Origin: Erythrobacter sp. EC-HK427
GTDB taxonomy: Bacteria; Pseudomonadota; Alphaproteobacteria; Sphingomonadales; Sphingomonadaceae
DNA: 64,000 nucleotides
Assembly: GCF_902498745.1 (NCBI RefSeq)
Contig: NZ_LR701479.1
Span: forward strand, 1,628,152-1,692,151
Direction of reading: 5' to 3'
Part shown: positions 30,423 to 58,121 of the stretch, one piece after another
How positions within the stretch are numbered: the stretch's first letter is position 1
How the letters are laid out: each line of letters begins with the position of its first letter
Notes under the pieces: generated by a model
Seen by the model: the letters and a program-made list of their open reading frames with translations, nothing else
Told to the model about the DNA's origin: nothing
Database searches by the model: none
Made by a program: the position numbers and the translations under genes

Positions 30423-30439
30423 ACCGAAAAAACGTCGAA
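30423..30439. promoter_or_regulatory. Candidate operator, site 1 of 5 (8/10 match)
   Basis: ACCGA-AAAAACG-TCGAA, compared with the consensus TCCGA-N7-TCGGA. Lies in the 256-bp gap between the divergent amidohydrolase and thiolase-like operons, 112 bases before the plus-strand start. The gap is otherwise AT-rich with a further TCCGA-containing stretch at 30332 that does not fit the spacing. Confidence 0.5.
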
Positions 30440-30550
30440 AAAACTTGACCGGACAATTCCACGTCCATAACAACATTGCCGAGCCGGCCGCGGTATGGTG
30501 CCTTGCCTACCGTCCTGAAGTTAGATGCCGGAAGATGACAGGAGTGCTCA

Positions 30551-31639
30551 ATGGCGCTTGGAAAAGTGGCGATCGTCGGGACCGCCCAGACCGAATTGCG
30601 ACCCGTCTGGGGTGAGGCGCAGCATATCGACCTGATTTCGGCGGTGGTTAGGTCGGTGTTCAAGGGAACCGGCTTTTCGATCGACGATGTAGATTTCGTG
30701 ATCGACTCTGGCAGCGACGTGCTCGACGGCCGCTCGATTTCCAACTGCGGTTTCCTTGGCGCTCTGGGTGCGCATCACAAAGAAGAGGCCCGTGTGGAGG
30801 CGGACGGCATCTGGGCGCTGCAATACGGCGTCAACAAGATCCGCTCGGGTGCGTCGTCGGTCGGCCTGATCGTTGCTTACTCCAAGCCATCGGAATCGAT
30901 GGTGGAAAACTATTGGGCTTCCCAAGTGGAGCCGTTCTACCAGCGCCCGGTCGGTTTCTCCCAACGGGCTGCGGCAGGCATCCAGGCCCAGCGCTATCTG
31001 GCGGACCGCGGTCGTTCGGTGCGTGACCTTGCTGAGTTTGCGGCGCGCCGGTGGGCGGATGCTAAGGCGAACGCCCGGGTCCAGATTGACGACCTGCCCG
31101 ATGCCGAAGCCGTGCTCGCATCCAGTGAAAGTGCCTTGCCATTGACGCAATTGATGATGTCGCGTCCGGTTGACGGCGCGATTGCCATGCTGATCGTCGA
31201 CGAAGCCTCGGCTCGCCGCGCAGGCAACAATCCCGTCTTCATCACCGGAATGGGCAGTGGCACCGATAGCCACGCCTATGCTGACCGCGATCCGCTGAAA
31301 CTCACTTCGCTTGAAGCGGCGGCCGCCATGGCTGCACGGGCTGCGGGCTGGTCTGCCAAAGAGGCCGACATCGTGGAATTGTCGGCTCCGTCCGTGGTTG
31401 GCGAGATGCTGGCGATCGAAATACTCGGTCTCGATGAAGGCAAGGCGGCTGTGAATCGCTCCGGCGGTGCGCTGCCCGCCGATCCGATCATGGCAACCGG
31501 CCTGTGCCGGGCCGTCGAAGCGGTGCGGCAATTGCGCGAACCGCAGCTCTACGACGGCGGCTCTCCGTCGCGCGCCTTGGTGCACGGCACGCAAGGCGTG
31601 GGCATGCAGAACAATTGCGTCATGACGCTGGAGGTTTAG
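30551..31639 (+). CDS. Thiolase-like protein lacking the nucleophilic cysteine (1)
   Basis: A 362-residue protein of the SCP2-thiolase/lipid-transfer class. Start MALGKVAIVGTAQTE and end ALVHGTQGVGMQNNCVMTLEV are typical. At the position of the usual CxSG nucleophile (about residue 83) the sequence reads VEADGIWAL, with no Cys. Proteins of this kind paired with DUF35 partners include the steroid side-chain aldolase Ltp2, so a retro-aldol or structural role is more likely than thiolysis. First gene of an operon to 39721; GGAG is weak before the ATG. Four bases separate it from the second thiolase-like gene. Confidence 0.8.
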   Translation: MALGKVAIVGTAQTELRPVWGEAQHIDLISAVVRSVFKGTGFSIDDVDFVIDSGSDVLDGRSISNCGFLGALGAHHKEEARVEADGIWALQYGVNKIRSGASSVGLIVAYSKPSESMVENYWASQVEPFYQRPVGFSQRAAAGIQAQRYLADRGRSVRDLAEFAARRWADAKANARVQIDDLPDAEAVLASSESALPLTQLMMSRPVDGAIAMLIVDEASARRAGNNPVFITGMGSGTDSHAYADRDPLKLTSLEAAAAMAARAAGWSAKEADIVELSAPSVVGEMLAIEILGLDEGKAAVNRSGGALPADPIMATGLCRAVEAVRQLREPQLYDGGSPSRALVHGTQGVGMQNNCVMTLEV

Positions 31640-31643
31640 GAAC

Positions 31644-32795
31644 ATGGGTCATCATGTAGCAATCGTCGGGGTGGGCCAGACGCATCATGCCCGCCGGCGT
31701 ACAGATGTAAGCCAGGCAGGTCTCGTCCGTGAAGCGGTCGACCGGGCGCTGGCTGACGCGAACATGGAAATGGGCGATATCGACACGATAGTGGTCGCCA
31801 CCGGTCCCGTCCTGTTCGGCGCAGTAAACCATCCCGAACTTTGGGTGGCGAATGCGATTGGCGCACAAGGCAAGCCGATCGTGCGCGTCACCAGTGGCGG
31901 CGGCGCCGGATTCGCCGGCGCACTGGCAGGCTATTATCAGGTGGCGGGCGGCTATGCCGGGCGCACGCTGGTGGTGGCTTATGACAAATTGTCCGAAGGG
32001 CCACTGCAATATTCGATTTCGACGCTCTACGATCCCTTCTGGGGCCGGGAGTTCGCAGTCGGGATCATGGGCTTTTCCGCAGCATACTGGCGTGCCCGGA
32101 TGGATGTCCTTGGTCATACCGAGGAAGCCGCAGCAATGGTTTCGGTCAAGAACCGGCGCAATTCCATCGCCAATCCCTATGCGCATATGAAAAAGGAAGT
32201 GACCGTCGAGGACGTGCTCAATTCCAAGCCACTGTGCTGGCCGATCAAGCTGCTTGACGTGCCGCCGATCTCGGACGGCGCGGCCGCCATTGTGCTCTCG
32301 AACGAGAAACTTGCGGCCAAATCCACGCAGCGGCCCGCCATCATCAAGGGCATGGCCTATTGCTGCGAGGCGGACAATGCGCCCGAGCGCTCGCTGATGA
32401 TCTCGGAACCGCTCGCGATTGCGGCAAAGAAAGTCTATCGGGCCGCCGGCATTACCAACCCGCGTCGCCAGTTCGACGTGGTGGAGGTGCAAGAGCCCTA
32501 CTCCTGCTTCGAGCTCAATTATTACGAGAGCCTGGGCCTCTGCCCGCCCGGTGAAGCCGCAGACCTCGTTGCCTCGGGTGCCACCGATCTTGATGGCGAC
32601 ATTCCGGTCAACCCGTCAGGCGGCTGCATGGGGGCTAATCCTATCGGTGCTGTCGGGGTGGTTCGCTTGATTGAAGCTGCAACCCAAGTCATGGGGCGCA
32701 ACGAGAGTCACCAGATCAAAGATGCCAAGTTGGCTCTGGTGCAGTCCGGCGGCGGCTGGGCCAATCTGCGCGGCTGTGCCGTGCTGAGCGCATAA
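31644..32795 (+). CDS. Thiolase-like protein lacking the nucleophilic cysteine (2)
   Basis: A 383-residue thiolase-superfamily protein (MGHHVAIVGVGQTHHARR…; PISDGAAAIVLSN; GGCMGANPIGAVG near the end, which corresponds to the GHPxGxTG region without His). There is no cysteine anywhere in the first ~190 residues; the nucleophile loop reads VTSGGGAGF. Together with the upstream protein and the DUF35 protein it forms a set reminiscent of the Ltp2-DUF35 aldolase and of archaeal thiolase-HMG-CoA synthase-DUF35 complexes. Reaction unknown. Confidence 0.8.
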   Translation: MGHHVAIVGVGQTHHARRRTDVSQAGLVREAVDRALADANMEMGDIDTIVVATGPVLFGAVNHPELWVANAIGAQGKPIVRVTSGGGAGFAGALAGYYQVAGGYAGRTLVVAYDKLSEGPLQYSISTLYDPFWGREFAVGIMGFSAAYWRARMDVLGHTEEAAAMVSVKNRRNSIANPYAHMKKEVTVEDVLNSKPLCWPIKLLDVPPISDGAAAIVLSNEKLAAKSTQRPAIIKGMAYCCEADNAPERSLMISEPLAIAAKKVYRAAGITNPRRQFDVVEVQEPYSCFELNYYESLGLCPPGEAADLVASGATDLDGDIPVNPSGGCMGANPIGAVGVVRLIEAATQVMGRNESHQIKDAKLALVQSGGGWANLRGCAVLSA

Positions 32796-32807
32796 GGGAG
32801 AGCGAAG

Positions 32808-33734
32808 ATGTTTTCAGCACCTGAATCGATGCCTTTGGACATGCCCACCTTTCACGCGGAAATCAGTCTTCCCTATACGCTTACGCCAGGCCGCGCGGCT
32901 GGCACGTTCCTTGCCGAAATGAAGAACAAGCGGATTGTCGGGTCGCGCATGGCGAATGGCGATATAGTTGCGCCTGCGCAGGACTTCTCCGCGAGCGATG
33001 GCGAGCCGATGACAAACTTTGTCGAAGCACCGCAGACTGGCGAGATCACTGCCTTTACGCGAGTGGACGGCAATATCATTGCCTTCATCCGTCTTGATGG
33101 ATGCAGCAATCAGTTTCCCCATCGTATCCTCGATCAACTTGACAATGTGAAGATCGGCGCCCGGGTAAAGGCCGAGTGGGAGGACGGCGTCGAGCAGTCC
33201 ATCCTGGCGATCAAGGGCTTCGTGCTTGCGCCCGATGCAGAGGTGGGAACAGTGCGCGCACTCGATGAGGTCGAGGAGGCTATCGGTTCGCTCCCCTATT
33301 CGATGGCGCTGCAATATGAGCATGCCTATGGCCCGTATTACGGGCGCATGTTCGACGAGATCAAAGGCTTTGGCCGGGTCATGGGTGTTCGCGGGTCCAG
33401 CAACGACGATGCCCTGCTGCCGCCGCGCGAAATCGATGACATCACGCACAAGCCGACCGGTACGTGGAAGACTTGCGCCGACACCGGCACGATCCGCGGC
33501 TGCTCGATCATCAACATGGAATTCATCGGGCAGACCCTGAAGCCGCCCTATGTCTATGCCGAGATCGTGCTTGACGGTGCCTCGACACGCCTGATCCACT
33601 TCATCGAGATCGACGACGTGGAATATGCCAAAAAGAACATCGGCCCCGGCACGCGCGTACGGGCGATCTGGACCCAAGGCGAGCGCAAGGGCTCGATGGC
33701 CGACATCGAGCGTTTCGAGGTTATCGACGAGTGA
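32808..33734 (+). CDS. Double DUF35 OB-fold protein without zinc-ribbon cysteines
   Basis: A 308-residue protein made of two consecutive DUF35-like units (about 20-150 and 170-305). Each ends in an OB-fold strand set (AFTRVDGNIIAFIRLDG…GARVKAEWE; IIN…YAEIVLDGASTRLIHFIEID…GTRVRAIW). In usual DUF35 proteins a rubredoxin-like ribbon with CxxC pairs precedes the OB fold; here those positions read GSRMANGDIVAP and GVRGSSNDDALLPP, without Cys. Hence a tandem, zinc-free version, presumably partner of the two thiolase-like proteins just upstream. The stop overlaps the next GTG. Confidence 0.77.
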   Translation: MFSAPESMPLDMPTFHAEISLPYTLTPGRAAGTFLAEMKNKRIVGSRMANGDIVAPAQDFSASDGEPMTNFVEAPQTGEITAFTRVDGNIIAFIRLDGCSNQFPHRILDQLDNVKIGARVKAEWEDGVEQSILAIKGFVLAPDAEVGTVRALDEVEEAIGSLPYSMALQYEHAYGPYYGRMFDEIKGFGRVMGVRGSSNDDALLPPREIDDITHKPTGTWKTCADTGTIRGCSIINMEFIGQTLKPPYVYAEIVLDGASTRLIHFIEIDDVEYAKKNIGPGTRVRAIWTQGERKGSMADIERFEVIDE

Positions 33735-34582
33735 GCAACTGGACCGTTACGTCGCTGCGCATAGGCGAAATCTACCTGCCGCACGACGGGGCGATACAGC
33801 GCGACCCGATACATTGCTGGCTGGCCCGCGACGGCGAGCACAACGTGCTGGTCGACACTGGCATGACCGACATCGCCATGGTCAACAAGCGGCTCAAGGT
33901 CGAAGGCTGGGGCGGCGGCCACGCATATCTGACCAGGGCGCTGGCAGCCGAGGGTCTTGCGCCGTCGGATATCGACCATATCGTGCTGACCCACGGTCAT
34001 TTCGATCACGCCGACAATCTCGACCTGTTCCCTGATGCCTGCGTCGTTATCCAGCGCGCTGAGCTGGCCCATGCCACCGATCCGGTGCCGTCGCAGCGCA
34101 TCTTCTACTGGAACACTACGATCGAAAACCTGGTGGCGCGCCGCCGCCAGCAGCAGATTCGCACGCTGGACGGCGACTGCCAACTGTTTCCCGGCTTTCG
34201 TATCCTCAAGGTGCCAAGCCACACGCCGGGAATGCAGGTGCCGATCCTGACGACGGCGAAAGGTGACGTGGCCATCGCTTCGGATCTTGGCGATCATTAT
34301 CGCTACTGGTTTCCGGCCGATGCACGCGCGACCAAGCGGCCTCAGCGTTCGCTTGCCGATGCTTACCTGACGGGCAACATCCGCAGCGAAAGCGAGCGCG
34401 ACTGGCAAGCAGCGATGCGCCGCGTGCAATCCGAATCCGACATCGTGATCCCGGCGCACGACTTTCGCATCCCGGTCCGCATTCCGGACGACTGGTGGGA
34501 AATTCCCGAAAGCAATGACGGCGACCTGGCCGGCGTTCCCCCTGATCGCGAAACTGAAGAATTGGCCAAAGGACAGTCATGA
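33731..34582 (+). CDS. Metallo-beta-lactamase-fold hydrolase (lactonase-like)
   Basis: A 283-residue MBL-fold protein with the dinuclear zinc motif HGHFDHAD (HxHxDH), then His in SHTPGMQ and Asp in ASDLGDH. The layout resembles N-acyl-homoserine lactonase-type enzymes, so it may hydrolyse a lactone or thioester in this pathway. GTG start 33731 overlaps the previous stop (GTGA) and its own end overlaps the crotonase ATG (ATGA), giving tight coupling. Confidence 0.82.
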   Translation: MSNWTVTSLRIGEIYLPHDGAIQRDPIHCWLARDGEHNVLVDTGMTDIAMVNKRLKVEGWGGGHAYLTRALAAEGLAPSDIDHIVLTHGHFDHADNLDLFPDACVVIQRAELAHATDPVPSQRIFYWNTTIENLVARRRQQQIRTLDGDCQLFPGFRILKVPSHTPGMQVPILTTAKGDVAIASDLGDHYRYWFPADARATKRPQRSLADAYLTGNIRSESERDWQAAMRRVQSESDIVIPAHDFRIPVRIPDDWWEIPESNDGDLAGVPPDRETEELAKGQS

Positions 34583-35394
34583 AAATGGAAAATGTTCTGC
34601 TTGAGATCGAGGACCGTATTGCGACGGTTACGTTGAACCGGCCCGACGCGCTTAACGCAACGACTGACGGTCTTTATGGCGAGCTAGCGGAATTGTTGCC
34701 GCAATTGCGCACCAATCCCGAAGTCGCCTGCGTGATCCTTACGGGTGCGGGCCGGGGCTTCTGTGCCGGAGCCGATCTCAAGAACCGGCGAACGGACCTG
34801 ACGCCACTGCAATTGAGTGCACGTCACCGCTGGATCCTCACCAACGTGCTGCGGCCTCTCTACGAAATGGAGAAACCGGTTATCGCGGCGGTAAACGGCG
34901 CAGCAGCCGGGGCGGGCGCCAATATCCCTCTGGCCTGCGATTTCGCCTACGCCAGCGAGAATGCGAGCTTCACGCAGGCCTTTGCGCGGGTCGGCCTTGT
35001 TGCCGATCTCGGCGGACTGTTCTTTCTGCAGCGCGCAGTCGGAAGGGCTCGGGCCAAGGAGTTGGTCTTTACCGCCCGCAAGGTTGATGCGAACGAAGCA
35101 CTAGAGATGGGTTTGGTGCAGAAGGTTGTACCGCACGACGAACTGCTTTCTGCAGCGCGCGAAACGGCTTTAGCTATCGCTCGCAACGCGCCGACTGCAG
35201 TCGGGATGATGAAGACTCTCATCAACAAGTCGGACTATTCGACATTCGACCAGATGGTGGAATTCGAGGCCTATGCCCAGACTGCGGCGTTCGTGTCTCC
35301 GGACTACATGGAAGGGGTCACGGCGTTCCGCGAAAAACGCAAGCCAGAGTTCAAGGGCGGCCCCGCGCAAACAGACAACGAGACATGGCGCTGA
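34579..35394 (+). CDS. Enoyl-CoA isomerase/hydratase, PaaG-like crotonase
   Basis: A 271-residue crotonase-fold protein. GAGRGFCAGADL forms the oxyanion hole. At the positions of the two hydratase glutamates it has Asn (GAGANIPLACD) and no Glu, while an Asp occurs in GLVADLGG; this resembles PaaG-type isomerases that use Asp rather than true hydratases. Probably shifts a double bond in a CoA ester. Between the MBL hydrolase (4-base overlap) and the acyl-CoA dehydrogenases. Confidence 0.85.
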   Translation: MKMENVLLEIEDRIATVTLNRPDALNATTDGLYGELAELLPQLRTNPEVACVILTGAGRGFCAGADLKNRRTDLTPLQLSARHRWILTNVLRPLYEMEKPVIAAVNGAAAGAGANIPLACDFAYASENASFTQAFARVGLVADLGGLFFLQRAVGRARAKELVFTARKVDANEALEMGLVQKVVPHDELLSAARETALAIARNAPTAVGMMKTLINKSDYSTFDQMVEFEAYAQTAAFVSPDYMEGVTAFREKRKPEFKGGPAQTDNETWR

Positions 35395-35412
35395 GCGTAC
35401 GGGAGATTTGGT

Positions 35413-36603
35413 GTGGACTTCAATTACACAGATGAAGAGCGCAAGTTCCGCTTTGAACTGCGCGACTGGCTGGCTTCCGCCCTTCCCGCTGGTTGGGGCG
35501 ACACGGTCTTCGAACCGGAAGACGAGGAAGAGCGCTATCTCTTTCGCAGGGATTGGGACAAGAAGCTGAGTTCGGGCGGCTGGTCCGGAATCAACTGGCC
35601 CGTCGAGTACGGCGGTCGGGGCGCGACACTGGTTGAACGTGGCATCTTCGCCGAGGAAATGGCGCGTGCCAAGGCGCCGGAAAGCCTCAACATAATCGGC
35701 CACAACCTTGCCGGGACCACCATCCTGCATCACGGTACCCAAGCGCAGAAGGATCGCTTTCTGCCGCCGATAATCGCCAATGACGAGATCTGGTGCCAGG
35801 GTTTTTCCGAACCCAACGCGGGTTCTGACCTGGCTTCGGTCCGCACCAAGGCAGTGCGCCACGGCGACAAATACATCGTCAACGGTCAGAAGATCTGGAC
35901 GAGCTACGCACAATACTCGCAATGGTGCTTTGCGCTGGTGCGGACCGATGTAGACGCGCCCAAGCACAAGGGGCTCAGCTTCCTGCTGATCGACATGAAA
36001 AGTCCGGGAATCTTAATCCGGCCGCTGCGCCAGATCTCTGGCGAGTCCGAATTCAACGAGACATTCTTCGAAGATGTCGAAGTGCCTGTCGAGAACCTCG
36101 TTGGTGAAGAGAATGATGGCTGGCGTATAGCCATGACAACTCTCGCCTACGAGCGTGGCCCAGAAGACTGCCTTGGTCGCCAGGTGCGCTTCAAGCAGGA
36201 AATGGAAAAGCTGCTCGAAGTTTGCTCGGCAGAGCCGACCGCGAACGGCGTCTTGTCCGACGACCCCATCGTCCGCCAGAAACTGGGCCGGTCGATCGTG
36301 GAAATCGAAGCAATGCGGCTCGTCGCTCTCAAGAGTTTCAGCCGCATCCATGCAGGCGACGAGCGCGGACCGGATGCTTCGGTCATCAAGCTCTATTGGA
36401 GCCATGCAGCGCAGCGCATGAACGAAGCAGCGCTGGACATTCTTGGTCCCACTGCCGTGTTGGCCGAGGGTGATGAAGATGCCAAAGCCAGTGGTCGTTT
36501 CCAGACCAGCTACCTGCAATCCAAGGCATTCTCGATCTATTCCGGTTCGTCGGAAATCCAGCGCAACATAATCGGTGAGCGTATGCTCGGCCTGCCGAGG
36601 TAG
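35413..36603 (+). CDS. Acyl-CoA dehydrogenase, subunit 1 of a likely heteromer
   Basis: FAD enzyme introducing an alpha,beta double bond, passing electrons to ETF. The 396-residue protein shows WCQGFSEPNAGSDLASVRTKA and the C-terminal IYSGSSEIQRNIIGERMLGLPR. In medium-chain enzymes the latter would be YEGT with the catalytic Glu; here it is YSGS. An alternative base at LAYERG, as in isovaleryl/long-chain enzymes, is present. GTG start at 35413. It is directly followed by a second, more divergent homologue, an arrangement known for alpha2beta2 acyl-CoA dehydrogenases of steroid catabolism. Confidence 0.88.
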   Translation: MDFNYTDEERKFRFELRDWLASALPAGWGDTVFEPEDEEERYLFRRDWDKKLSSGGWSGINWPVEYGGRGATLVERGIFAEEMARAKAPESLNIIGHNLAGTTILHHGTQAQKDRFLPPIIANDEIWCQGFSEPNAGSDLASVRTKAVRHGDKYIVNGQKIWTSYAQYSQWCFALVRTDVDAPKHKGLSFLLIDMKSPGILIRPLRQISGESEFNETFFEDVEVPVENLVGEENDGWRIAMTTLAYERGPEDCLGRQVRFKQEMEKLLEVCSAEPTANGVLSDDPIVRQKLGRSIVEIEAMRLVALKSFSRIHAGDERGPDASVIKLYWSHAAQRMNEAALDILGPTAVLAEGDEDAKASGRFQTSYLQSKAFSIYSGSSEIQRNIIGERMLGLPR

Positions 36604-36616
36604 GAAGGACTTCCAG

Positions 36617-37744
36617 ATGAATTTCCTGTTCAATGAAGAGCAGACCAGCCTTGGCGAGACCGTTGGGCAAGTCCTTGCCGACTTTGCTGCGCTGACTGCG
36701 CCCGACCCGTCTCGCGATAGTGAGGCGGAGGTTTGGGGCGCGCTGGCCGAGCTTGGTCTGTTTTCCCTGCTCGTGCCTGAAGAGCATGACGGCGTCGGCC
36801 TGGCCTTCGTGGACCTTGCACCCTCCATCGAAGCGCTGGGTTCGGGTCTCGCGTCTCCTCTGATCGCCTCCACCCTCGTGGCGACCGAGGCAATCAAACG
36901 GCTCGGATCGTCAGACCAACGCGCGAAGCTGCTGCCGGAAATCGCCATCGGGGAAACCGCGATTGCAATTGCCTCTGCCGAACTGGGCCGGGGCAAAGAC
37001 CCGTTCTTTGCCGAGTGTCGCCTGCTCGATGGCAAGCTGTCAGGCAAGAAGATCGCTGTAGCGGGCGCCGATGTGGCGCAAGAGTTGCTGGTCATTGCTC
37101 GGACTGAAAGCGCACCTGTGCTTGTTCTGGTGCCAACCGATGCAGCGGGTGTGACAATCACGGCTCACTCGGATATTGATCCCTCCGCTGGTCTGTGCCG
37201 CGTCGTGTTCGACAATGTCGCCGTCGCTGCTGGACAGCAACTCGCCAGGGCCTCGATCGACGCCTTGGACACGCTCGTTGACCTGGGTGCAACGGTCCAC
37301 TCCGGGATGGCCATGGGGATTGCCGAAGTCATGCTAAGGCGCAGCGTCGCCTTTGCCTCACAGCGCGAACAATTTGGCAAGCCCATCGGTTCATTTCAGG
37401 CGATTAAGCATCGTTGCGCCGATCTTGCGGTCGCCGTCGAAGCTGGCAAGGCAACATCGCACTATGCCTTCTGGGCGTGTTCGGAGAATTCCGAGGATCG
37501 GTCCGGCGCGGCCTCTGCGGCCAAGGCCTATTGCGGAGAAATCGGCTGCAATGCATGCAATGACGCGATCCAGGTGCACGGCGGCATGGGGTTCACCTGG
37601 GAACTCGGCCTGCACCGCTATTTGCGCAGGGCTCAGGTGATCGAACATGCGGTGGGCAGCCGCGCATGGCATTACGATCGCGTGGTGACCGAGGCCCTCG
37701 CCGCGCGTGAAGTCGAGAACGCGGCGCATCGAGACGCAGCCTGA
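36617..37744 (+). CDS. Acyl-CoA dehydrogenase, subunit 2 of a likely heteromer
   Basis: A 375-residue acyl-CoA-dehydrogenase-fold protein, shorter and more divergent than its neighbour. The FAD-binding REQFGKPIGSFQAIKH and QVHGGMGFTWELGLHRYLRRAQ are conserved, but the substrate loop of the N-terminal half is weak (ETAIAIASAELGRGK) and the C-terminal Glu motif is absent. Likely the structural partner of the 35413 product. The ATG at 36617 is used; 14 further codons upstream would overlap the preceding gene. Confidence 0.83.
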   Translation: MNFLFNEEQTSLGETVGQVLADFAALTAPDPSRDSEAEVWGALAELGLFSLLVPEEHDGVGLAFVDLAPSIEALGSGLASPLIASTLVATEAIKRLGSSDQRAKLLPEIAIGETAIAIASAELGRGKDPFFAECRLLDGKLSGKKIAVAGADVAQELLVIARTESAPVLVLVPTDAAGVTITAHSDIDPSAGLCRVVFDNVAVAAGQQLARASIDALDTLVDLGATVHSGMAMGIAEVMLRRSVAFASQREQFGKPIGSFQAIKHRCADLAVAVEAGKATSHYAFWACSENSEDRSGAASAAKAYCGEIGCNACNDAIQVHGGMGFTWELGLHRYLRRAQVIEHAVGSRAWHYDRVVTEALAAREVENAAHRDAA

Positions 37745-37750
37745 CCGGCC

Positions 37751-38227: not shown

Positions 38228-38266
38228 AATGCCGGTCGACACGGCTGTCGGCGAGAGGAACTGACA

Positions 38267-41709: not shown

Positions 41710-41795
41710 TCCACCTCTCCTAAACCGAAAGTTCATCGGAAAAACCTAGGGGACTTTAGCAAAGGCTGATGATAAATCTACATCTTCAGTCAAAA

Positions 41796-41812
41796 TCCGA
41801 AAAAAATTCTTT
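41796..41812. promoter_or_regulatory. Candidate operator, site 2 of 5 (one good half-site)
   Basis: TCCGA-AAAAAAT-TCTTT: the left half is perfect, the right half matches only at TC. Found between the divergent SDR and P450 genes, 57 bases before the P450 ATG, in a 160-bp AT-rich gap. The weakest of the five sites. Confidence 0.35.
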
Positions 41813-44027: not shown

Positions 44028-44044
44028 TCCGACTATTTTTCGAT
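44028..44044. promoter_or_regulatory. Candidate operator, site 3 of 5 (8/10 match)
   Basis: TCCGA-CTATTTT-TCGAT between the divergent TetR gene and the SnoaL-like gene. On the other strand it reads as two CGAAAAA/CGGAAAAA blocks 11 bases apart, the same phase as in site 1. Confidence 0.5.
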
Positions 44045-44577: not shown

Positions 44578-44626
44578 TCGGCGAATCCGAATAGCCCAGA
44601 CAAGACACGAGAGTGGAGAAATCGCA

Positions 44627-45703: not shown

Positions 45704-45705
45704 CA

Positions 45706-46464: not shown

Positions 46465-46515
46465 CCGGCCCCGAATTGCCAGCAGCAATAATGAACCCAT
46501 CCTGGGGAGGATAAT

Positions 46516-49026: not shown

Positions 49027-49096
49027 TGGATCGAAAGTTGCGGGCACGGTCTTTTTGGCGGAAGATCGTGCCCGTTTCCTTGTGGAAAGCCCGAAC

Positions 49097-50955: not shown

Positions 50956-51377
50956 GCGGCAAGAACGATCCCGCAGTCGCCGCAGCGATCGACGACGCGC
51001 GTGCATTCATCGATGCAATTCTGGCAAGCGATTGGCAGGAACTGCACATTTCCGGCGACGATTTCGAGCTGTTTTTAGCCCGCGATGGCGGTGGGCCGAA
51101 CCCTATGTTCACCGCCATTGATTCTTCCGCGTCGCCCGCGTCCGCTGCAACAACTCAGGTCACTGTGATTGCTGCGCCGCATGTGGCGACGATTGCCTGG
51201 GTGGCAGAGCCGGGCACGGTTTTTGCCGCTGGCAAGCCGCTGGCACGCCTGTCGGTCCTCGATGAGGTCACTGAAATCCGGGCATCGAATGACGGTCGTG
51301 TGGCCGGTGTGGATGTGGCGGTCGGCGAGCTGGTCGAATTTGGCATCACCATCCTACAGATTGCGGCAGAAGAATGA
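50952..51377 (+). CDS. Carrier-like biotinyl-domain protein without the biotin lysine
   Basis: A 141-residue protein with the AccB-like N-terminal helix (DDARAFIDAILASDWQELHISGDDFELFLAR) and a C-terminal biotinyl/lipoyl-fold region. At the place of EVMKLF it reads LDEVTEIRA, so there is no Lys to biotinylate. It may be a structural subunit of the carboxylase, or a degenerate carrier. Overlaps biotin carboxylase and hydroxyacyl-CoA dehydrogenase genes by 4 bases each, hence in one translational unit. Confidence 0.72.
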   Translation: MSGKNDPAVAAAIDDARAFIDAILASDWQELHISGDDFELFLARDGGGPNPMFTAIDSSASPASAATTQVTVIAAPHVATIAWVAEPGTVFAAGKPLARLSVLDEVTEIRASNDGRVAGVDVAVGELVEFGITILQIAAEE

Positions 51378-52792
51378 CAGCAAGTGTAGCCAAACGCATC
51401 GGCGTCTGCGGTGCCGGGGCCATGGGCTCGGGCATTGCCGAGGTCGCGGCGCAGCGCGGTGCCGACGTGAAGGTATTCGATGTTAATGCGGATGCTCTAA
51501 AGAGCAGCGAGGCCATGATCGGAAAGTCGATCGCGCGTCTTGTCGAAAAGGGCAAACTGACGAGCGCACAGGGTGATGAGGCGCTGCAGCGCATGCAGTG
51601 GATCGGCGATCTTGCGGAGATGGCTGATCGCGAGCTTGTGATCGAGGCGGTGATCGAGGATGCCGATATCAAGGCGAGCCTCTTTGGCGGGCTCGAAGAT
51701 GTCCTGCCGGACGATGCAATTATCGCCAGTAACACCTCTTCGCTTCCTATCGGCCGCCTCGCGCGCAATTTGCGGAATTCTGCCCGGTTCTGCGGCATGC
51801 ACTTCTTCAATCCGGCAACAATCATGAAACTGGTTGAAGTGGTGTCTGGCCCTGCTACCGATCCGTCAGTCGCGGACACAGTGGCGGAAACCGCGAGGGC
51901 CTGGGGCAAGGTAGCCATTCCGGTGGCCGATGTCCCGGGTTTTATCGTCAATCGGGTGGCTCGGCCCTTCTATGGAGAGGCCTTTACTGCGTTCAACGAA
52001 CAGGTCGCGCAGCCGCATGTGATCGATGCCCTGTTCCGTGCTAACGGTTTTCGCATGGGGCCGCTCGAGTTGACTGACTTGATTGGCCAGGATGTGAATT
52101 ACTCGGTCGCTCGCTCGATTTTCGATTCCTATTTCGGCCAGACGCGGTTTGTTCCCCAGCTACGCCAGGCCGCGCTAGTCGACGCCGGCTGGCTTGGGCG
52201 GAAAACGGGGCAGGGCGTGTACAGCTACAGTGATCGGGCGGATGCGAGTGAGCTGAACGCCAAGCCGCGAGACCCAAGCGGTGCAGATCGTGAGCTGGCT
52301 GGCAAGGTGCTTGGCCTCAAAGCCGGAACCCTGCTTGAAAGCGATGGTGTTCTGCTCGGCCTGACGCGCGGGAAGACTGCTGCAAACGAAGCGAGGACCG
52401 CCGGTAAGCCGGTCGTGCTGTTCGACCTTATCGACCCCGACAATGACGGACCGTTAGGCTACGCCGTGTCTGACGATGGTCCGGAGCACGTCGCGCAAGC
52501 GGTCGCAGCAGGTCTTCGGCGATCAGCCGTGCGCTTGACAGACCGACCTGGCCTGATCGTGTTTCGTACCCTTGCCCAGATTGCCAATGCCGCAGGCGAC
52601 GCCGTATTCGAGCACGTTGCTGACGAAGAAGGCATCGATTTGGCCATGCGCTATGGTGTGAACTATCCATTCGGACCGTTCGCATTTGCTGACCGCGTGG
52701 GGCGCGAGAGCCTTATCGCGTCCCTCCGCAATATCGCCGACGAATCGGGGCAGCCGATGTATCAACCCTCCCAATACTGGAGCGTCAAGTGA
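51374..52792 (+). CDS. 3-hydroxyacyl-CoA dehydrogenase, PaaH-like with two C-terminal domains
   Basis: NAD-dependent oxidation of 3-hydroxyacyl-CoA. The 472-residue enzyme begins with IGVCGAGAMGSGIAEVAAQRGADV, has SNTSSLPI and HFFNPATIMKLVEVV with the catalytic His, PGFIVNRVARP, and a duplicated 3HCDH C-terminal domain (about 185-280 and 385-465), as in PaaH-type enzymes. In an ATGA-coupled series with the carrier-like protein and the next crotonase. Confidence 0.92.
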   Translation: MTASVAKRIGVCGAGAMGSGIAEVAAQRGADVKVFDVNADALKSSEAMIGKSIARLVEKGKLTSAQGDEALQRMQWIGDLAEMADRELVIEAVIEDADIKASLFGGLEDVLPDDAIIASNTSSLPIGRLARNLRNSARFCGMHFFNPATIMKLVEVVSGPATDPSVADTVAETARAWGKVAIPVADVPGFIVNRVARPFYGEAFTAFNEQVAQPHVIDALFRANGFRMGPLELTDLIGQDVNYSVARSIFDSYFGQTRFVPQLRQAALVDAGWLGRKTGQGVYSYSDRADASELNAKPRDPSGADRELAGKVLGLKAGTLLESDGVLLGLTRGKTAANEARTAGKPVVLFDLIDPDNDGPLGYAVSDDGPEHVAQAVAAGLRRSAVRLTDRPGLIVFRTLAQIANAAGDAVFEHVADEEGIDLAMRYGVNYPFGPFAFADRVGRESLIASLRNIADESGQPMYQPSQYWSVK

Positions 52793-53568
52793 GAGCTTCC
52801 GAGATCCTGCTGAGCGAAAAGCGAAGCGATATGGTCCTGTTGCTTCGGCTTAACCGGCCGGAGAAGTCCAATGCGCTGGCAACGGACCTGCTGGCCGAAA
52901 TTGCCGACGCGCTGGATGCTGTCGCGGGCGATCCAGAAGTGCGAGCTGCCGTCATTACCGGCTCGGACAAGGTGTTTGCGGCGGGTGCTGACATCAACGA
53001 GCTAGCGCAACGCGATACTGATGGTGCCCTGGCTGATCCGCGCCCTGGCCTGTGGGCGCGCATTCGGGCATTTCCGAAGCCGCTGATTGCGGCCGTGGAG
53101 GGCTGGTCGCTCGGTGCTGGCAACGAGCTGGTCATGTGCTGCGACCTCGCTGTGAGCGGTGAGAAGGGCAAGTTCGGGCAGCCGGAAACCAACCTCGGTA
53201 TCATTCCCGGCGCGGGCGGAACCGCGACCTTGCCCCGGCTCGTCGGCCGGACACGCGCAATGAAGATGGTGCTGCTGGGCGAACCGATTTCTGCCCAGGA
53301 GGCACTTGCCGCCGGACTGATCTGCGAAGTCGTTGAAGCCGGCAAGGCACTGGAAACGGCTCTGGCCCTTGCGGCCAGAATCGCCGCCCGTGCGCCGGTT
53401 GCCATGCAACAGGGCAAGGCAATGGTCCGCGCTGCTTTTGAGACGCCGCAGACCGCCCATCTGGCGATGGAGCGTCAGGCGTTCTCGGCCCTTTTCGGGA
53501 CGGCTGACAAAAAGGAAGGCGTTGCCGCTTTCCTCGAAAAGCGTGACCCGGAATGGTCGGGCCGCTGA
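52789..53568 (+). CDS. Enoyl-CoA hydratase
   Basis: Hydrates a 2-enoyl-CoA. The 259-residue crotonase has both hydratase glutamates: GAGNELVMCCD and FGQPETNLGIIPGAGGT, and the oxyanion hole FAAGADI. GTG start at 52789 in a GTGA overlap with the dehydrogenase. It and the dehydrogenase make a standard beta-oxidation pair. Its last 16 bases overlap the next gene. Confidence 0.92.
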   Translation: MRASEILLSEKRSDMVLLLRLNRPEKSNALATDLLAEIADALDAVAGDPEVRAAVITGSDKVFAAGADINELAQRDTDGALADPRPGLWARIRAFPKPLIAAVEGWSLGAGNELVMCCDLAVSGEKGKFGQPETNLGIIPGAGGTATLPRLVGRTRAMKMVLLGEPISAQEALAAGLICEVVEAGKALETALALAARIAARAPVAMQQGKAMVRAAFETPQTAHLAMERQAFSALFGTADKKEGVAAFLEKRDPEWSGR

Positions 53569-54548
53569 AGACCCGGGTTACCGAGCTTCTCGGGATCCGC
53601 CACCCGATCATCCAGGGCGGCATGCAGAATGTCGGGCGCGCGCGGCTGGCGGCGGCGGTTTCGCAAGCTGGCGGGCTGGGCATGATAACCGCGCTTACTT
53701 TCCCGACCCCGCAGGCGCTGGCTGAAGAGATCGCGCTGTGCCGCCAACTCACCTCGGCACCGTTCGCGGTGAATATCTCGGTCTTCCCGACCATGCGCCC
53801 GCCTGACTATGGCGAGATCGTCCAGGTCATCGCTGATTCCGGAATCGAAACGGTAGAGACTGCGGGGACGCCCGAGGTGCGGGATGTCTGGAAGCTGCTG
53901 AAGGCCCACGACATCAGGATCATTCACAAGTGCACGTCGGTGCGGCACGCGCTGTCATCGCAGCGGCACGGCGTCGACATGATTTCGATCGACGGCTTCG
54001 AATGTGCCGGCCATCCGGGCGAAGACGACATTCCCGGCCTCGTCCTCATCCCGGCGGCGGTCGACAAGCTGGAGATTCCGGTGATCGCCAGCGGGGGCAT
54101 TGCCGATGCCCGTGGGCTGGTCGCCGCGCTCTCTCTCGGGGCCGATGCCGTCAACATGGGGACGCGGTTTTGTGCCACGCAAGAGGCCGAGATTCATGAG
54201 AATGTGAAGCAGGCCTATGTCGCCAATGACGAACGACAGACGGACCTTATCCTTCGGCCCTTTAGAAACAGCGCCCGTGTGGGCCGCAACGCGATGTCGC
54301 AGGAAGTTCTGGAGCGAACCGCGGGCACTAATCCAGCCTTCGAAGACGTGGCAGACCTGGTCTCAGGCCAACGCGGCAAGCTGTTGCTGGAGAGCGGCGA
54401 CCTCGACAGCGGCATTTTCTGGGCGAGCATGGCGCAAGGCCTGATCCACGACATCCCGACCTGCGATGCGCTGATTTCGGGGATCATGGATGAAGCGCGG
54501 GCGATTATTGCAGACCGGTTGCAAGGAATGCTCGCGGGCCGGGACTAG
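53553..54548 (+). CDS. Nitronate monooxygenase-like FMN enzyme
   Basis: A 331-residue TIM-barrel flavoprotein of the nitronate monooxygenase/2-nitropropane dioxygenase family: PIIQGGMQNVGRARLAAAVSQAGGLG, the loop GFECAGHPGEDD with the conserved His, and ASGGIADARGLVAALSLGADAVNMGTRF. Similar proteins in CoA-ester catabolism (for example IpdC in steroid ring degradation) act as reductases on CoA-linked cyclic intermediates, so this role is as likely as nitronate oxidation. Last gene of the plus-strand operon; its stop shares CTAG with the convergent crotonase. Confidence 0.83.
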   Translation: MVGPLKTRVTELLGIRHPIIQGGMQNVGRARLAAAVSQAGGLGMITALTFPTPQALAEEIALCRQLTSAPFAVNISVFPTMRPPDYGEIVQVIADSGIETVETAGTPEVRDVWKLLKAHDIRIIHKCTSVRHALSSQRHGVDMISIDGFECAGHPGEDDIPGLVLIPAAVDKLEIPVIASGGIADARGLVAALSLGADAVNMGTRFCATQEAEIHENVKQAYVANDERQTDLILRPFRNSARVGRNAMSQEVLERTAGTNPAFEDVADLVSGQRGKLLLESGDLDSGIFWASMAQGLIHDIPTCDALISGIMDEARAIIADRLQGMLAGRD

Positions 54549-55321
54549 CCTTTGCGGTGCAAGGCGGCGGCAACGCCAGCACGGCTGGCATCGTTCTCGA
54601 CCATCGCGGCAGAACCTTGCTGCGCGGCAAGATAGGCCTCGAACCAGGCGTCGCCTTCCAGCTTGAGCGAATCGTGTTTGCGCGCGCGCATTATCGCGCT
54701 GTCCTTCGCCGCCACCTCCTCCGCCAGCGCCATGGCGCGCGGCAGCACGTCATCGGCGTCGACCACGTAGTTGAAGAATCCCGTCGGCTGGAGTTCGGCG
54801 GCGGTATACTTACGTCCGGTATAGAGCATTTCGCGTAGCTTCGGCTCAGGCAGGCGCAGGGCCACAAAGCGCCCCGCGCAGCCGCTCAACAACCCGAAGT
54901 CCACTTCTGGCAGAGCGAATTTCGCTTCGCGCGCGGCGACCCGGAAATCGAACAGGCTCGACAGCACCATGCCGATGCCCACGGCAGGCTTGGCAATTGC
55001 CGCGATTGTCGGGCGGTCCAGCGCATGGAACTTGGGCAGCTGGCGATTGATGAAGGCGTAGCGTTCCTCGCGCTGCGTCTTGGTAATGCCCTCGAAGTCC
55101 TTCAGGTCAGCCCCGCCGCACCAGGCTCGCGCCTCCTCCGGAGCGCGCATGACCAGCGCCTTGATCGCGTCATCGGCGGCAATGCGATCGGTCAGCTTGC
55201 CAAGCGCTTCGTAGACCGCGAGCGAAAATGCGTTGACCGGCGGTCGGCTAAAGGTCGCGACGGCTACGCCCGACGGCAGCACTTCAAGTTCGAAGTCGCC
55301 GATCCGCTCGCAATTGCTCAT
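54545..55321 (-). CDS. Crotonase-family protein lacking one hydratase glutamate (A)
   Basis: A 258-residue crotonase-fold protein. Oxyanion hole region ARAWCGGADL; Glu in FALPEVDFGL is kept, but the first hydratase Glu is missing (GIGMVLSSLFD, Val at that place). Such proteins are often isomerases, CoA hydrolases or C-C hydrolases, not hydratases. Strongly related to the next gene upstream (both have REMLYTGR/REMVYTGR and GFFNYVV). ATG 55321 overlaps the upstream stop by 4 bases. Confidence 0.85.
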   Translation of the reverse strand: MSNCERIGDFELEVLPSGVAVATFSRPPVNAFSLAVYEALGKLTDRIAADDAIKALVMRAPEEARAWCGGADLKDFEGITKTQREERYAFINRQLPKFHALDRPTIAAIAKPAVGIGMVLSSLFDFRVAAREAKFALPEVDFGLLSGCAGRFVALRLPEPKLREMLYTGRKYTAAELQPTGFFNYVVDADDVLPRAMALAEEVAAKDSAIMRARKHDSLKLEGDAWFEAYLAAQQGSAAMVENDASRAGVAAALHRKG

Positions 55322-56115
55322 TCCTCGTCGTCTTTGCCCAGCGCCGCGCGCACTGCGGCATTGCTTTCCGGATTCTCGACAAGCGCCGAGGAAGCCTCTT
55401 GCGCCTTGAGATAGGCGTCCATCCATTCGGGCCCTTCGAACATCAGTGAGGCAAGCTTTCTGGCCTTGAGCGCGGGAAGGGACTTTGACGCGATCGTATC
55501 GGCAAGGTCGAGCGCCAGTGGCAGCACCGCTGACGGCGGCACGACGTAATTGAAGAAGCCGGTATCTTCCAGTTCCTTCGCGGTGAAAGCGCGGCCGGTG
55601 TAGACCATTTCGCGCACCTTGGCTTCGGGCATTCCAAGGCTTGCCAGCAGACCCGCGCTACCGCCGATCAGGCCATAGTCGACTTCGGGACAAGCAAACC
55701 GGGCATTGGTGCTGGCTATCCGCAAGTCACACATTCCCGCCAGCATAACGCCGACGCCGACCGCGGCGCTGCGAATGGCGGCGATCATCGGGCGATCAAT
55801 GCGGTGAAAACGCGGCAGGCATTCGTTGATGAAGTCGTAGCGTTCCTTGCGGCGCGCGGCTGTCATCCCTTCGAATTCGCGCAAGTCCGCACCGCCGCAC
55901 CACGCGCGCGCATCGTCGGGCGCAGCAATCACGATCACCTTTATCCGGTCGTTTTCGGAAACGTAGTCGGCGAAAGCCCGGATGTCTTCATAGGTTTCGA
56001 GCGATAGAGCGTTGACCGGCGGACGCGAGAAGGTGACGAGGGCAACACCATTGTCGCGCAATTCGATCGAGAACGCGCCGAACTTGACGGCATCGGTGCT
56101 CTCTTTTCCGTACAT
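55318..56115 (-). CDS. Crotonase-family protein lacking one hydratase glutamate (B)
   Basis: A 265-residue paralogue of the 54545-55321 product. ARAWCGGADLREFEGMTAARRKERYDF, GVGVMLAGMCD (Met where Glu is usual) and FACPEVDYGLIGGSAG show the same retention of only one Glu. The two products may form a heteromer. The gene starts at the TGATG junction with the CoA-transferase subunit B gene, so four minus-strand genes (57454 to 54545) form a single coupled operon. Confidence 0.85.
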   Translation of the reverse strand: MYGKESTDAVKFGAFSIELRDNGVALVTFSRPPVNALSLETYEDIRAFADYVSENDRIKVIVIAAPDDARAWCGGADLREFEGMTAARRKERYDFINECLPRFHRIDRPMIAAIRSAAVGVGVMLAGMCDLRIASTNARFACPEVDYGLIGGSAGLLASLGMPEAKVREMVYTGRAFTAKELEDTGFFNYVVPPSAVLPLALDLADTIASKSLPALKARKLASLMFEGPEWMDAYLKAQEASSALVENPESNAAVRAALGKDDEE

Positions 56116-56774
56116 CAGGATGCCATTGTCAGGTTCACGCCGGTCATCTCCCGTAACTCTTCCAGCGTCAGTCCTTCGACCAGTTCCACCACCTTCGCCC
56201 CGTCCGGACCGAGATCAATAACGCCCAGCTCGCAGTAGATCCGCGAAACGCAGCCAAGGCCCGTCAGTGGATATGTGCATTCCTCAACCAGCTTGCTTTC
56301 GCCGGTCTTGGTGAGGAGGTTCATCATCACGAAAACCTGCTTGGCGCCGATTGCCAAGTCCATGGCCCCGCCGACCGCCGGGATCGCATCGGGGTCGCCG
56401 GTATGCCAGTTTGCTAGGTCGCCGTGCGTGGAAACCTGATAGGCGCCCATCACGCAGATATCGATATGGCCGCCGCGCATCATCGAGAAGCTGTCACCGT
56501 GATGGAAGAAGCAGCCGCCGTTCAGTAGCGTAACGGGCTGTTTGCCTGCGTTGATCAGATCCCAGTCGATGTCGGCCTCGTCGGGTGCAGGACCCATGCC
56601 GAGAATGCCGTTTTCGCTGTGCAGGAAATAGTCGCCATCCTGCTCAAGGTAATTGGCGACCTGGGTCGGCAGACCGATGCCGAGGTTGACGTAAGCGCCT
56701 TCGGGAATGTCTTGGGAAACTCGCTTTGCCAGCTGCTGCTTGTCAAGGCGCTGGATTGCGTCTGCGGCGCTCAT
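56115..56774 (-). CDS. 3-oxoacid CoA-transferase, subunit B
   Basis: A 219-residue beta-subunit of an SCOT/PcaJ-type CoA-transferase: YVNLGIGLPTQVANYL, the catalytic Glu in SENGILGMGP, and MRGGHIDICVMGAYQVS. Transfers CoA between acids such as succinate and a 3-oxo acid. Its ATG overlaps the stop of subunit A (56771). A second complete pair is at 62141-63483. Confidence 0.93.
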   Translation of the reverse strand: MSAADAIQRLDKQQLAKRVSQDIPEGAYVNLGIGLPTQVANYLEQDGDYFLHSENGILGMGPAPDEADIDWDLINAGKQPVTLLNGGCFFHHGDSFSMMRGGHIDICVMGAYQVSTHGDLANWHTGDPDAIPAVGGAMDLAIGAKQVFVMMNLLTKTGESKLVEECTYPLTGLGCVSRIYCELGVIDLGPDGAKVVELVEGLTLEELREMTGVNLTMAS

Positions 56775-57454
56775 GCGGCGGCCTTTCCTGCTTCTGCGAT
56801 CTGCACGATGTGGTCCACGAAAATTCCCGGTGTGACCACGGTTTCCGGATCGAGCGATCCGAGCGGATCAATCTCTTCCACCTGAACTACGGTGGTCTTA
56901 CCAGCCATGGCCATGATCGGGCCAAAATTTCGTGCTGCCTTGCGGTAGACGAGGTTCCCCCAACGATCGGCCCTGTGGGCCTTCACGAGCGCCAGATCGG
57001 CATGAATCGGATATTCCAGGACATAGTGGCGCCCGTCGATTTCGCGGGTTTCCTTGCCCTTGGCCAGCTTGGTCCCGAAGCCGGTTGGCGTGAATATGGC
57101 CCCAAGGCCCGAGCCCGCCGCCTGGATGCGTGCGGCGAGATTACCTTGCGGAACAAGCTCCAGCTCCAGTTCGCCGGCGCGATAGCGTTCCTCGAAATGG
57201 CGGGACCCGACCATGCGCGGGTAGGAGCAGATAATCTTGCGCACTCTGCCCGCACCAATCAGGGCAGCGATGCCAACATCGCCGGTGCCCGCGTTATTGC
57301 TGATGATGGTCAGGTCGGTAGCGCCTTGCGCCACAACGCCTTCAACCAGTTCTGCGGGCACGCCGGCCTCGCCGAAGCCGCCGATCATAATGGCGGCTCC
57401 ATCCTGCAAACCCGTCAGGGCCTGCGCGACTGTACTGGCCTGCTTGTCGATCAC
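56771..57454 (-). CDS. 3-oxoacid CoA-transferase, subunit A
   Basis: A 227-residue alpha-subunit: GGFGEAGVPAELVEGV, SNNAGTGDVGIAALI, GNLVYRKAARNFGP and the final PGIFVDHIV are family marks. GTG start at 57454, preceded by GGAG. A perfect candidate operator (57472-57488) lies directly upstream. With subunit B and two crotonases it forms a four-gene minus-strand operon. Confidence 0.93.
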   Translation of the reverse strand: MIDKQASTVAQALTGLQDGAAIMIGGFGEAGVPAELVEGVVAQGATDLTIISNNAGTGDVGIAALIGAGRVRKIICSYPRMVGSRHFEERYRAGELELELVPQGNLAARIQAAGSGLGAIFTPTGFGTKLAKGKETREIDGRHYVLEYPIHADLALVKAHRADRWGNLVYRKAARNFGPIMAMAGKTTVVQVEEIDPLGSLDPETVVTPGIFVDHIVQIAEAGKAAA

Positions 57455-57471
57455 CTTGCATCACTCCAAAT

Positions 57472-57488
57472 TCCGATAACTTTTCGGA
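57472..57488. promoter_or_regulatory. Candidate operator, site 4 of 5 (perfect)
   Basis: TCCGA-TAACTTT-TCGGA, a full 5+5 inverted repeat with an AT-rich 7-base spacer, 18 bases before the GTG of the CoA-transferase operon. Confidence 0.65.
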
Positions 57489-57557
57489 TATAGTAGAGAT
57501 GTGAGGATATTTCGCAAGCTGTCTTTGGCACTTCGTCCAGCGCGACACCTGCTGGTT

Positions 57558-58100
57558 TTAGCTTGTCGGCGCTTCGATTGGTGTCGCGCGGCAGAAGGCT
57601 CCGTTAAAGTAGAGCATAGGATCGAATGTTTCGGCCATCCCCATGTGGCGAACCTTTCCAATGAATATCTCGTGTGTTTCGTACACATGACTATCGAGCA
57701 GTTCGCATTCGAAGGAGGCGGTCGCACCCTTCAGAAAGGGCTGTCCAGCCGGGGAATCGACCCACTTACCGTTGATAAACCGGTCGCGCCCCTCCAGCCC
57801 CTTTTGTGCCGAGAAGATTGCAACAGTCTCTACTTCGTTGGCTTGCAGGAGATTCAGCGAAAACAGTCTGGTACGCACGATCAGCGGATGCACACTCGCG
57901 TTGCGGTTTACGCATACGAGCATCAACGGAGGATCAGCACACAGCGAATTCCAAGCGGTTGCGGCCATGCCCGTGCGATCTTCGCCGTCTGCCGAGGAGA
58001 TGATAGCGACAGGGCCTGGAACCCGGCGCATTTGGGTGACGAACTGAGTCCGGTGACTTTCCGGGGATGGAGCTTTGATTTCGCTGTTTGACATCGCCAT
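57558..58100 (-). CDS. Flavin reductase (FMN:NADH type)
   Basis: A 180-residue flavin-reductase-like protein: FVTQMRRVPGPVAIIS, GMAATAWNSLCADPPLMLVCVN, and SLNLLQANE. It is the kind of separate reductase that feeds FMNH2 to two-component monooxygenases, so it probably serves the two luciferase-like enzymes. An ATG two codons in (58094) is an alternative start; neither has a strong ribosome binding site, and the upstream DNA is a candidate operator. Divergent from the RibBA-like gene. Confidence 0.87.
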   Translation of the reverse strand: MAMSNSEIKAPSPESHRTQFVTQMRRVPGPVAIISSADGEDRTGMAATAWNSLCADPPLMLVCVNRNASVHPLIVRTRLFSLNLLQANEVETVAIFSAQKGLEGRDRFINGKWVDSPAGQPFLKGATASFECELLDSHVYETHEIFIGKVRHMGMAETFDPMLYFNGAFCRATPIEAPTS

Positions 58101-58104
58101 ATAA

Positions 58105-58121
58105 TTCCGAATAAACGTCGG
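58105..58121. promoter_or_regulatory. Candidate operator, site 5 of 5 (perfect)
   Basis: TCCGA-ATAAACG-TCGGA between the divergent flavin reductase (5 bases from its ATG) and RibBA-like genes. Confidence 0.65.

Follow-up and report, generated by a model that had tools for sequence, protein, structure and literature searches.

A palindrome shared by the gaps of a catabolic island in Erythrobacter sp. EC-HK427 as the predicted operator of one TetR-family regulator

In a 64,000-nucleotide stretch of the Erythrobacter sp. EC-HK427 genome (the window; positions count from its first base), a 17-bp palindrome, TCCGA-N7-TCGGA, recurs in the gaps between genes of a catabolic island. Sequence comparisons suggest that a single TetR-family regulator, the product of the gene at 43124-43834, uses these palindromes as operators and would control the ~40-kb island as one regulon, and we put the probability of this reading at roughly 0.8. 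The predicted sites and the regulator gene are as follows.

57472-57488, no strand: predicted operator, perfect TCCGA-N7-TCGGA, TCCGATAACTTTTCGGA, matrix score 30.0
58106-58122, no strand: predicted operator, perfect, TCCGAATAAACGTCGGA, matrix score 24.5, the best genome-wide profile match
44028-44044, no strand: predicted operator, 8 of 10 positions, TCCGACTATTTTTCGAT, matrix score 26.3, in the divergent TetR/SnoaL-monooxygenase gap
30423-30439, no strand: predicted operator, 8 of 10 positions, ACCGAAAAAACGTCGAA, matrix score 26.0, in the divergent amidohydrolase/thiolase gap
41724-41740, no strand: predicted operator, 9 of 10 positions, ACCGAAAGTTCATCGGA, matrix score 21.0, absent from the initial annotation
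41796-41812, no strand: half-site or asymmetric second site, TCCGAAAAAAATTCTTT, matrix score 20.3, with a good CCGA half
43861-43877, no strand: weak candidate operator, matrix score 15.8, found by the matrix alone
43124-43834, minus: TetR-family regulator and proposed binder, TetR_N 50.6 bits (cut-off 24), TetR_C_4 22.6 bits (cut-off 21)

All five copies listed in the initial annotation were present on direct reading, but one of them begins at 58106 and not at 58105, and the sites at 41724 and 43861 had been overlooked. Four of the five site-bearing gaps lie between divergent genes, as had been stated, and the fifth (57455-57557) separates two minus-strand genes. By our own gene calls, with the start of the flavin reductase set by hand to 58100, the region from 24 to 64 kb holds six gaps of at least 60 bp, five of them with sites. 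No site was found in the sixth (61092-61214, between same-strand electron transfer flavoprotein (ETF) genes), and none scoring above 7.1 in the 20-kb stretch past the right end of the window (to window position 79,849). The 57472 site is located 17 bp upstream of the start of CoA-transferase A (57454, minus) and is directly preceded by a promoter-like element, TTGCGA-N17, also present in A. indicum. The 58106 site precedes the flavin reductase (minus) in the gap from which ribAB (plus) diverges. The 41724 site is 14 bp upstream of the start of a short-chain dehydrogenase/reductase (SDR) at 41709, with an alternative open reading frame start (41736) inside the site, and the 43861 site is 26 bp ahead of a GTG start option of the TetR gene (43834), or falls within the reading frame should translation begin at the TTG at 43903. 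Nineteen sites outside the window, taken in both orientations, gave the consensus nATATCCGAnAATTTnTCGGATATn, with a CCGA-N7-TCGG core and AT-rich spacer and flanks.

Sites were predicted across genera in both directions with two matrices (L and G numbers denote loci and genomes of our collection). Matrix 1 was built from 13 sphingobial sites at L040, L041, L042, and L045, none from the own genome or A. indicum; L041 is from a Sphingomonas metagenome-assembled genome, and L040 and L042 are mutually close. On the 64-kb window the seven sites took ranks 1-7 (30.0-15.8), all in gaps, while rank 8 (9.6) fell in coding DNA. When 200 sequences were drawn from a first-order Markov model of the gap DNA, their best scores had a mean of 8.7 and a maximum of 20.2, and their fourth-best scores a mean of 3.3 and a maximum of 8.6. 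Matrix 2, built from 10 sites of the own genome and A. indicum, was applied to 118,596 bases from two Sphingobium clusters outside all training, of which 7,988 were called non-coding by a simple, purpose-written gene caller with approximate starts. At a score of at least 17 there were 23 matches in gaps versus one in called-coding DNA (31 versus 3 at 10 or above, 18 versus 0 at 20 or above), and 60 column-permuted matrices gave a mean of 0.02 gap matches at 17.

A profile of the 19 sites outside the window, in both orientations, returned seven matches from the 3.14-Mb genome at E ≤ 10, corresponding to four distinct places (58106, 44028, 57472, and 30423). The initial annotation had named a motif equally frequent in coding DNA as the outcome that would speak against it; all four places lie in the gaps it had noted. 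No place beyond these was returned, nor was 41724, in a search that scored 150 of 338 first-look candidates and may have lost places. Among 20 other genomes of the genus, three of which (G014, G103, and G165) were checked for the TetR, five had matches at E ≤ 1, at six distinct places and at most two per genome; single matches at this level arise by chance, and four together occurred in none of the 20. At the same threshold, the listed matches of G312, G340, and G301 fell at eight, six, and five distinct places, in each case on one cluster-holding contig stretch. None of the three is fully independent, since G312 and G340 are related to the training sphingobia and G301 is A. xanthus, whose cluster hardly differs from the one in A. 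indicum, a species that contributed sites to the profile. No profile match was found in four Sphingobium genomes without the TetR. In the matrix scan of loci with a TetR of lower identity, weaker gap sites were observed (L034 at 1115, score 20.9; L044 at 10634, score 8.8).

As a control for the TetR-based collection of loci, we scored 13 loci with a carboxyltransferase homolog and no TetR, its absence being checked genome-wide for eight (the remaining five are G464, G428, G479, G422, and G436). These reached at most 16.9; with the same matrix, five window sites scored 24.8-31.7 and the two weak window sites 20.4 and 15.5. Left out of this control were L106 (from G070), the second locus of G152, and G400. 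G070, with a 50% TetR, has a gap site scoring 21.3, and the second carboxyltransferase locus of G088 has no site (best score 5.0). The carboxyltransferase homolog occurs in 19 of 397 family genomes, mostly in other clusters.

Counts of the bare pattern are uninformative, because the signal sits in the AT-rich flanks and spacer. With up to two mismatches the pattern has 40 copies in the window versus 43.8 expected, which is not above chance, and with up to one mismatch it has 85 places genome-wide, barely exceeding the 75 of the reversed-pattern control. Both figures are what AT-rich gaps that merely happen to hold an inexact palindrome would give. Against such an origin by chance or composition speak the cross-genus matrix tests with their shuffled and permuted controls, the whole-genome profile search, and the standing of the sites as conserved islands within the gaps, and we find it hardly credible. 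Perfect copies occur at four distinct places in 3.14 Mb, two of them in the window, versus none for the control. An open count over 12 loci, covering 13,312 palindrome types (5-base arms, spacers of 0-12), put TCCGA-N7-TCGGA first, with seven of its nine copies in gaps; the next types had four, and one of the two at four represents the same sites one base wider. In the sphingobia alone, this count gave a three-way tie at three. The motif is confirmed to exceed chance as perfect copies, and it does so strongly when extended by its AT-rich flanks and spacer. With a fixed IUPAC pattern, three island sites and four places elsewhere were found and 57472 was missed, and matrices were therefore used instead. 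Perfect copies at 1999319 and at 35950 were unconvincing as operators; the former lies in called-coding DNA and has a matrix score of 4.6, and the locus of the latter (L111) scores 7.8 at best.

Clusters with a TetR of at least 70% identity contain the same genes in similar order, and the same gaps carry the palindrome in other genera (amidohydrolase/thiolase, SDR, TetR/SnoaL, CoA-transferase, and flavin reductase). Between genera these gaps mostly fail to align outside the site and a promoter-like element. The window, L031, L040, L042, and L041 share TTTCCGA-N7-TCGATT in the TetR/SnoaL gap, with TTGACG a few bases on, and the half-sites of 44028 form the main conserved run in these five aligned loci; the same string is found in the shorter alignment of L045 and L033. 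The 30423 site is identical in all 17 letters in A. indicum, with a related site at the equivalent place in G088. Ahead of the SDR, the 41724-41796 pair is spaced by 72 bp in six of seven loci and by 74 bp in the seventh, five of the seven being sphingobial or close and therefore not independent observations; in the gap alignment of L033 no such pair was found. On the more speculative two-mode reading considered below, the recurrence across genera of a strong and an asymmetric site 72 bp apart might reflect cooperative or looped binding.

The regulator belongs to the TetR family by its TetR_N domain, which is well over the cut-off, and by a C-terminal helical domain that passes TetR_C_4 narrowly and is all-helical in the model. 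Its best solved-structure match, by sequence and by fold, is the acyl-CoA-responsive FadR/YsiA of Bacillus, with which it shares the name of a YsiA-like C-terminal Pfam domain; in contrast, it reaches 70.1 bits with the FadR equivalog model NCBIfam NF053878 (cut-off 200) and is not FadR. The structure model is modest (mean predicted local distance difference test score of 68), and the structures that match its fold, FadR and MtrR, support a TetR in general and nothing narrower. The gene is rare: it was found in five of 298 family genomes, the own included, and in five of 94 genomes of the Sphingobium genus group, and no match was found in a search of plasmids. The search of the genome collection yielded 13 loci, eight at 50-91% identity and five at 27-40%. 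Among 13 aligned TetR sequences, the own included, the DNA-binding region is highly conserved, with the helix-turn-helix (HTH) residues Y105, E106, Y107, and Y108 invariant in all. In L040, L042, L045, L076, and L079 we observed two TetR paralogs (about 72% and 70% identical to the window TetR), each with a site upstream; the site ahead of the second sphingobial copy is weaker in most clusters.

The TetR of 43124 had been proposed as the likely binder from its position, and it is the sole island TetR with relatives of at least 70% identity in site-carrying sphingobial clusters; its own gap and the predicted target gaps carry the conserved palindromes. This evidence is strong but circumstantial, and it indicates that TetR 43124 very probably binds the sites. 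A real operator bound by another regulator, either TetR2 (23504-24178) or one encoded elsewhere, is quite unlikely. A. indicum, A. xanthus, and G152 have close TetR2 orthologs (82-84%), the one of A. xanthus lying on its cluster contig; adjacency, moreover, leaves room for a regulator encoded elsewhere, and the genome-wide count (seven places) took in TetR genes only. However, in three site-rich Sphingobium genomes the best match to TetR2 is 37% identical and lies on contigs apart from the cluster, the matches in G088 and G070 are at 43-44%, and no match was found in G302 and G303. The gap adjoining TetR2 (23358-23503) holds none of the 15 best sites of the window. Among the scanned island genes, with the gene at 62848 and three small frames at 20150-22064 unscanned, Pfam named TetR 43124 and TetR2 23504 as DNA-binding regulators, and no further one.

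Promoter elements were chosen by eye and transcription starts are predicted, and most of the elements have a counterpart in A. indicum. In the CoA-transferase promoter, TTGCGA lies at 57517 and the -10-like ACTATA extends to 57489, with the 57472 site beginning at the next base geneward; in the flavin reductase promoter the -10-like element ends at 58125 and the 58106 site follows two bases on. The centres of both sites lie near +2 to +4 of the predicted start, a classical blocking position. In the 30295-30550 gap, TTGACC (30445) and an opposite-strand TTGATT (30417) flank the 30423 site, and in the TetR gap TTGACG (44050) follows the 44028 site; TTGACC and TTGACG are each 5 bp past their site. 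The regulator probably acts by repression. A TetR dimer would bind the 17-bp site. At the CoA-transferase, flavin reductase, and SDR promoters, where the site lies just past the -10-like element or just before the ribosome-binding site, the dimer would block transcription, and in the two largest divergent gaps, where -35-like elements adjoin the site (at 30423 on either side), a single dimer could close both promoters. Release of the repressor would come from an early pathway compound or a CoA thioester, a ligand class that we infer, and the units would be switched on together.

The predicted promoter elements put the sites in two distinct positions, and the TetR might instead be an activator, or activate near -49 (30423 and 44028) by recruiting RNA polymerase while repressing at +2 to +4 (57472 and 58106). 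We consider this unlikely: the two -49 sites are in divergent gaps, where they may block the opposite gene or both, the starts are predicted by eye, and EdcR (PMC8700777) and CamR (PMC6027186) are repressors. More speculative, and on balance doubtful, is the idea that one TetR uses two positional modes, start-blocking sites and paired or upstream sites near -49, over the whole monoterpene pathway, including uptake, upper and lower steps, and the cofactor genes ribAB and the duplicate bioB.

Several observations weigh against repression of a single regulon by TetR 43124. The training sites of the matrices were chosen for resemblance to the noted pattern (at most two mismatches, AT-rich), so that the matrices inherit its core, and the independent part of the matrix evidence is gap placement and flanks. 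The gene caller took the DNA around two of these sites, among the 13 from sphingobia (L045 at 19828 and L041 at 3074), for coding. The loci were gathered by TetR search, which makes the co-occurrence of site and TetR partly one by construction, and the carboxyltransferase control loci belong to other pathways. No profile match was found in G302 and G303 (TetR at 50-53% identity), and the two profile places of G088 (TetR at 51%) are both away from its TetR. The 41796 site is asymmetric, and the centres of 30423 and 44028, about 49 bp upstream of the predicted start, are equally typical of activators. The start codon of the TetR gene is uncertain, because its frame is open to the TTG at 43903, some 60 residues before the HTH domain, and the upstream stretch (43835-43903), translated by eye, contains AKSTKFPK, identical in A. 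indicum DNA. Finally, the substrate, probably 1,8-cineole or a related bicyclic monoterpene, is assigned by sequence similarity alone.

The genes that the proposed regulon would comprise, and their neighbours, are as follows.

24199-30294, minus: leftward unit of amidohydrolase, acyl-CoA ligase, alpha/beta hydrolase, thiolase, cupin, and SDR
30551-39721, plus: two thiolase-like proteins, OB-fold protein, metallo-beta-lactamase fold protein, crotonase, two acyl-CoA dehydrogenases, biotin carrier, and PYC/OADA-type carboxyltransferase
39728-41709, minus: unit of SDR and major facilitator superfamily transporter
41869-43110, plus: cytochrome P450, matching CYP101J2
44200-54548, plus: SnoaL-like protein, luciferase-like monooxygenase, SDR, TonB receptor, biotin carriers, biotin carboxylase, 3-hydroxyacyl-CoA dehydrogenase, crotonase, and nitronate monooxygenase (NMO)-like protein
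54545-57454, minus: CoA-transferase A and B and two crotonases
57558-58100, minus: flavin reductase
58300-63836, plus: ribAB-type protein, BioB-like radical SAM protein, ETF beta and alpha, CoA-transferase A (62138), and [2Fe-2S] ferredoxin
62848, plus: presumed CoA-transferase partner, named from position only

The island P450 is identical to CYP101J2 in 278 of 395 aligned residues (70%). By convention, a P450 with more than 55% identity to a member is placed in the same subfamily, and by this identity the island enzyme belongs to CYP101J. CYP101J2 of Sphingobium yanoikuyae B2 hydroxylates 1,8-cineole (PMC5598857). The closest solved structure of the luciferase-like enzyme is 3,6-diketocamphane 1,6-monooxygenase (349 bits), and together with the flavin reductase at 57558 it is predicted to form a type II (two-component) Baeyer-Villiger system. 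The described cineole route proceeds by hydroxylation, dehydrogenation to a ketone, and lactonisation (PMC4097962), and the P450, SDR, luciferase-like enzyme, flavin reductase, and CoA enzymes appear to fit it. In the proposed pathway, hydroxylation by the P450 would be followed by SDR oxidation to the ketone and by a flavin-dependent Baeyer-Villiger step fed by the flavin reductase, with CoA activation and beta-oxidation with biotin-dependent carboxylation as later steps. From the CYP101J2 match, the substrate broken down by the island is probably 1,8-cineole or a related monoterpene, the chances being evenly balanced that cineole itself is the substrate. A. indicum has no P450 at the equivalent place and a P450 of 53% identity elsewhere in its cluster, and the substrate may therefore vary among strains. 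The CoA-transferase, NMO, and crotonase genes had at first suggested a steroid pathway of the IpdAB/KstR2-like kind. This reading was dropped because the CoA-transferase is of the 3-oxoacid type, fitting the pcaI/scoA and pcaJ/scoB models, and the P450 and luciferase-like enzyme match monoterpene enzymes. KstR2 is a lower-ranked match of the TetR.

Some further features of the island were observed. The biotin-synthase-like gene (59271-60317), near biotin-dependent carboxylase genes, has a second copy at G000:C2:1770610 with 86% identity. Five control loci that lack TetR 43124 contain a 65-83% relative together with carboxylase homologs. The ribAB-type gene stands beside it among flavoenzymes, and the two may provide a dedicated cofactor supply. 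Within what resembles a terpene pathway there is a biotin-dependent carboxylase (38267-39721, 37751-38227, and 48998-51377) with a PYC/OADA-type carboxyltransferase and three biotin carriers, and with no obvious acceptor. A 25-codon frame, MISGFKPC... (44126-44203), sits past the operator and ahead of the SnoaL gene, and its stop overlaps the start region of that gene; A. indicum and A. xanthus retain it as MISGCKPC.... It was not found in five sphingobial loci in a search for three short peptide strings, and is a possible leader peptide. At the left island edge (17820-21360), a serine recombinase, a DUF2924 gene, and a transposase fragment come after a tRNA-Ser. The TetR was not found in six genomes of the same genus, nor the carboxyltransferase in 11. 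From this edge and these absences, the block is likely an acquired island.

Catabolic clusters with promoter palindromes and a TetR repressor of their own are of an already known kind. EdcR of Caenibius tardaugens is a TetR repressor of estradiol genes with the operator TnnCnnTACnAnTnGTAnnGnnA (PMC8700777). Like EdcR, the present TetR lies inside a sphingomonad catabolic cluster, with the same arrangement in another genus; the EdcR palindromes overlap the promoter -10 box. Compared by eye, the operator core differs (CCGA-N7-TCGG versus TnnCnnTACnAnTnGTAnnGnnA) and the island sites do not match an EdcR-type operator; the C-terminal domain is TetR_C_4 and not TetR_C_11, and the compound would be a monoterpene and not a steroid. 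CamR of Pseudomonas putida is a TetR repressor of camRDCAB, with further regulator genes on the plasmid (PMC6027186). The likeness to CamR, by description and not by sequence or operator, is that a TetR-type protein would control a P450 of the CYP101 family and an alcohol dehydrogenase that act on a bicyclic monoterpene, and that diketocamphane monooxygenases take part downstream; unlike the camRDCAB operon, one motif here spans the upper and lower pathway. PheR of a Sphingobium is an IclR-family repressor with a different core sequence (PMC13273656). In the literature searched, which covered few subscription papers, we found neither this operator sequence, TetR regulator, or regulon nor a regulator of the 1,8-cineole pathway, and no account of the regulation of CYP101J2.

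The analysis provides a testable operator, regulator, and gene list for the putative breakdown of 1,8-cineole or a related monoterpene in sphingomonads, and a weak-looking, inexact palindrome becomes testable through prediction across genera. A block of unexplained genes would thereby become a defined regulon, with a possible terpene-responsive sensor.

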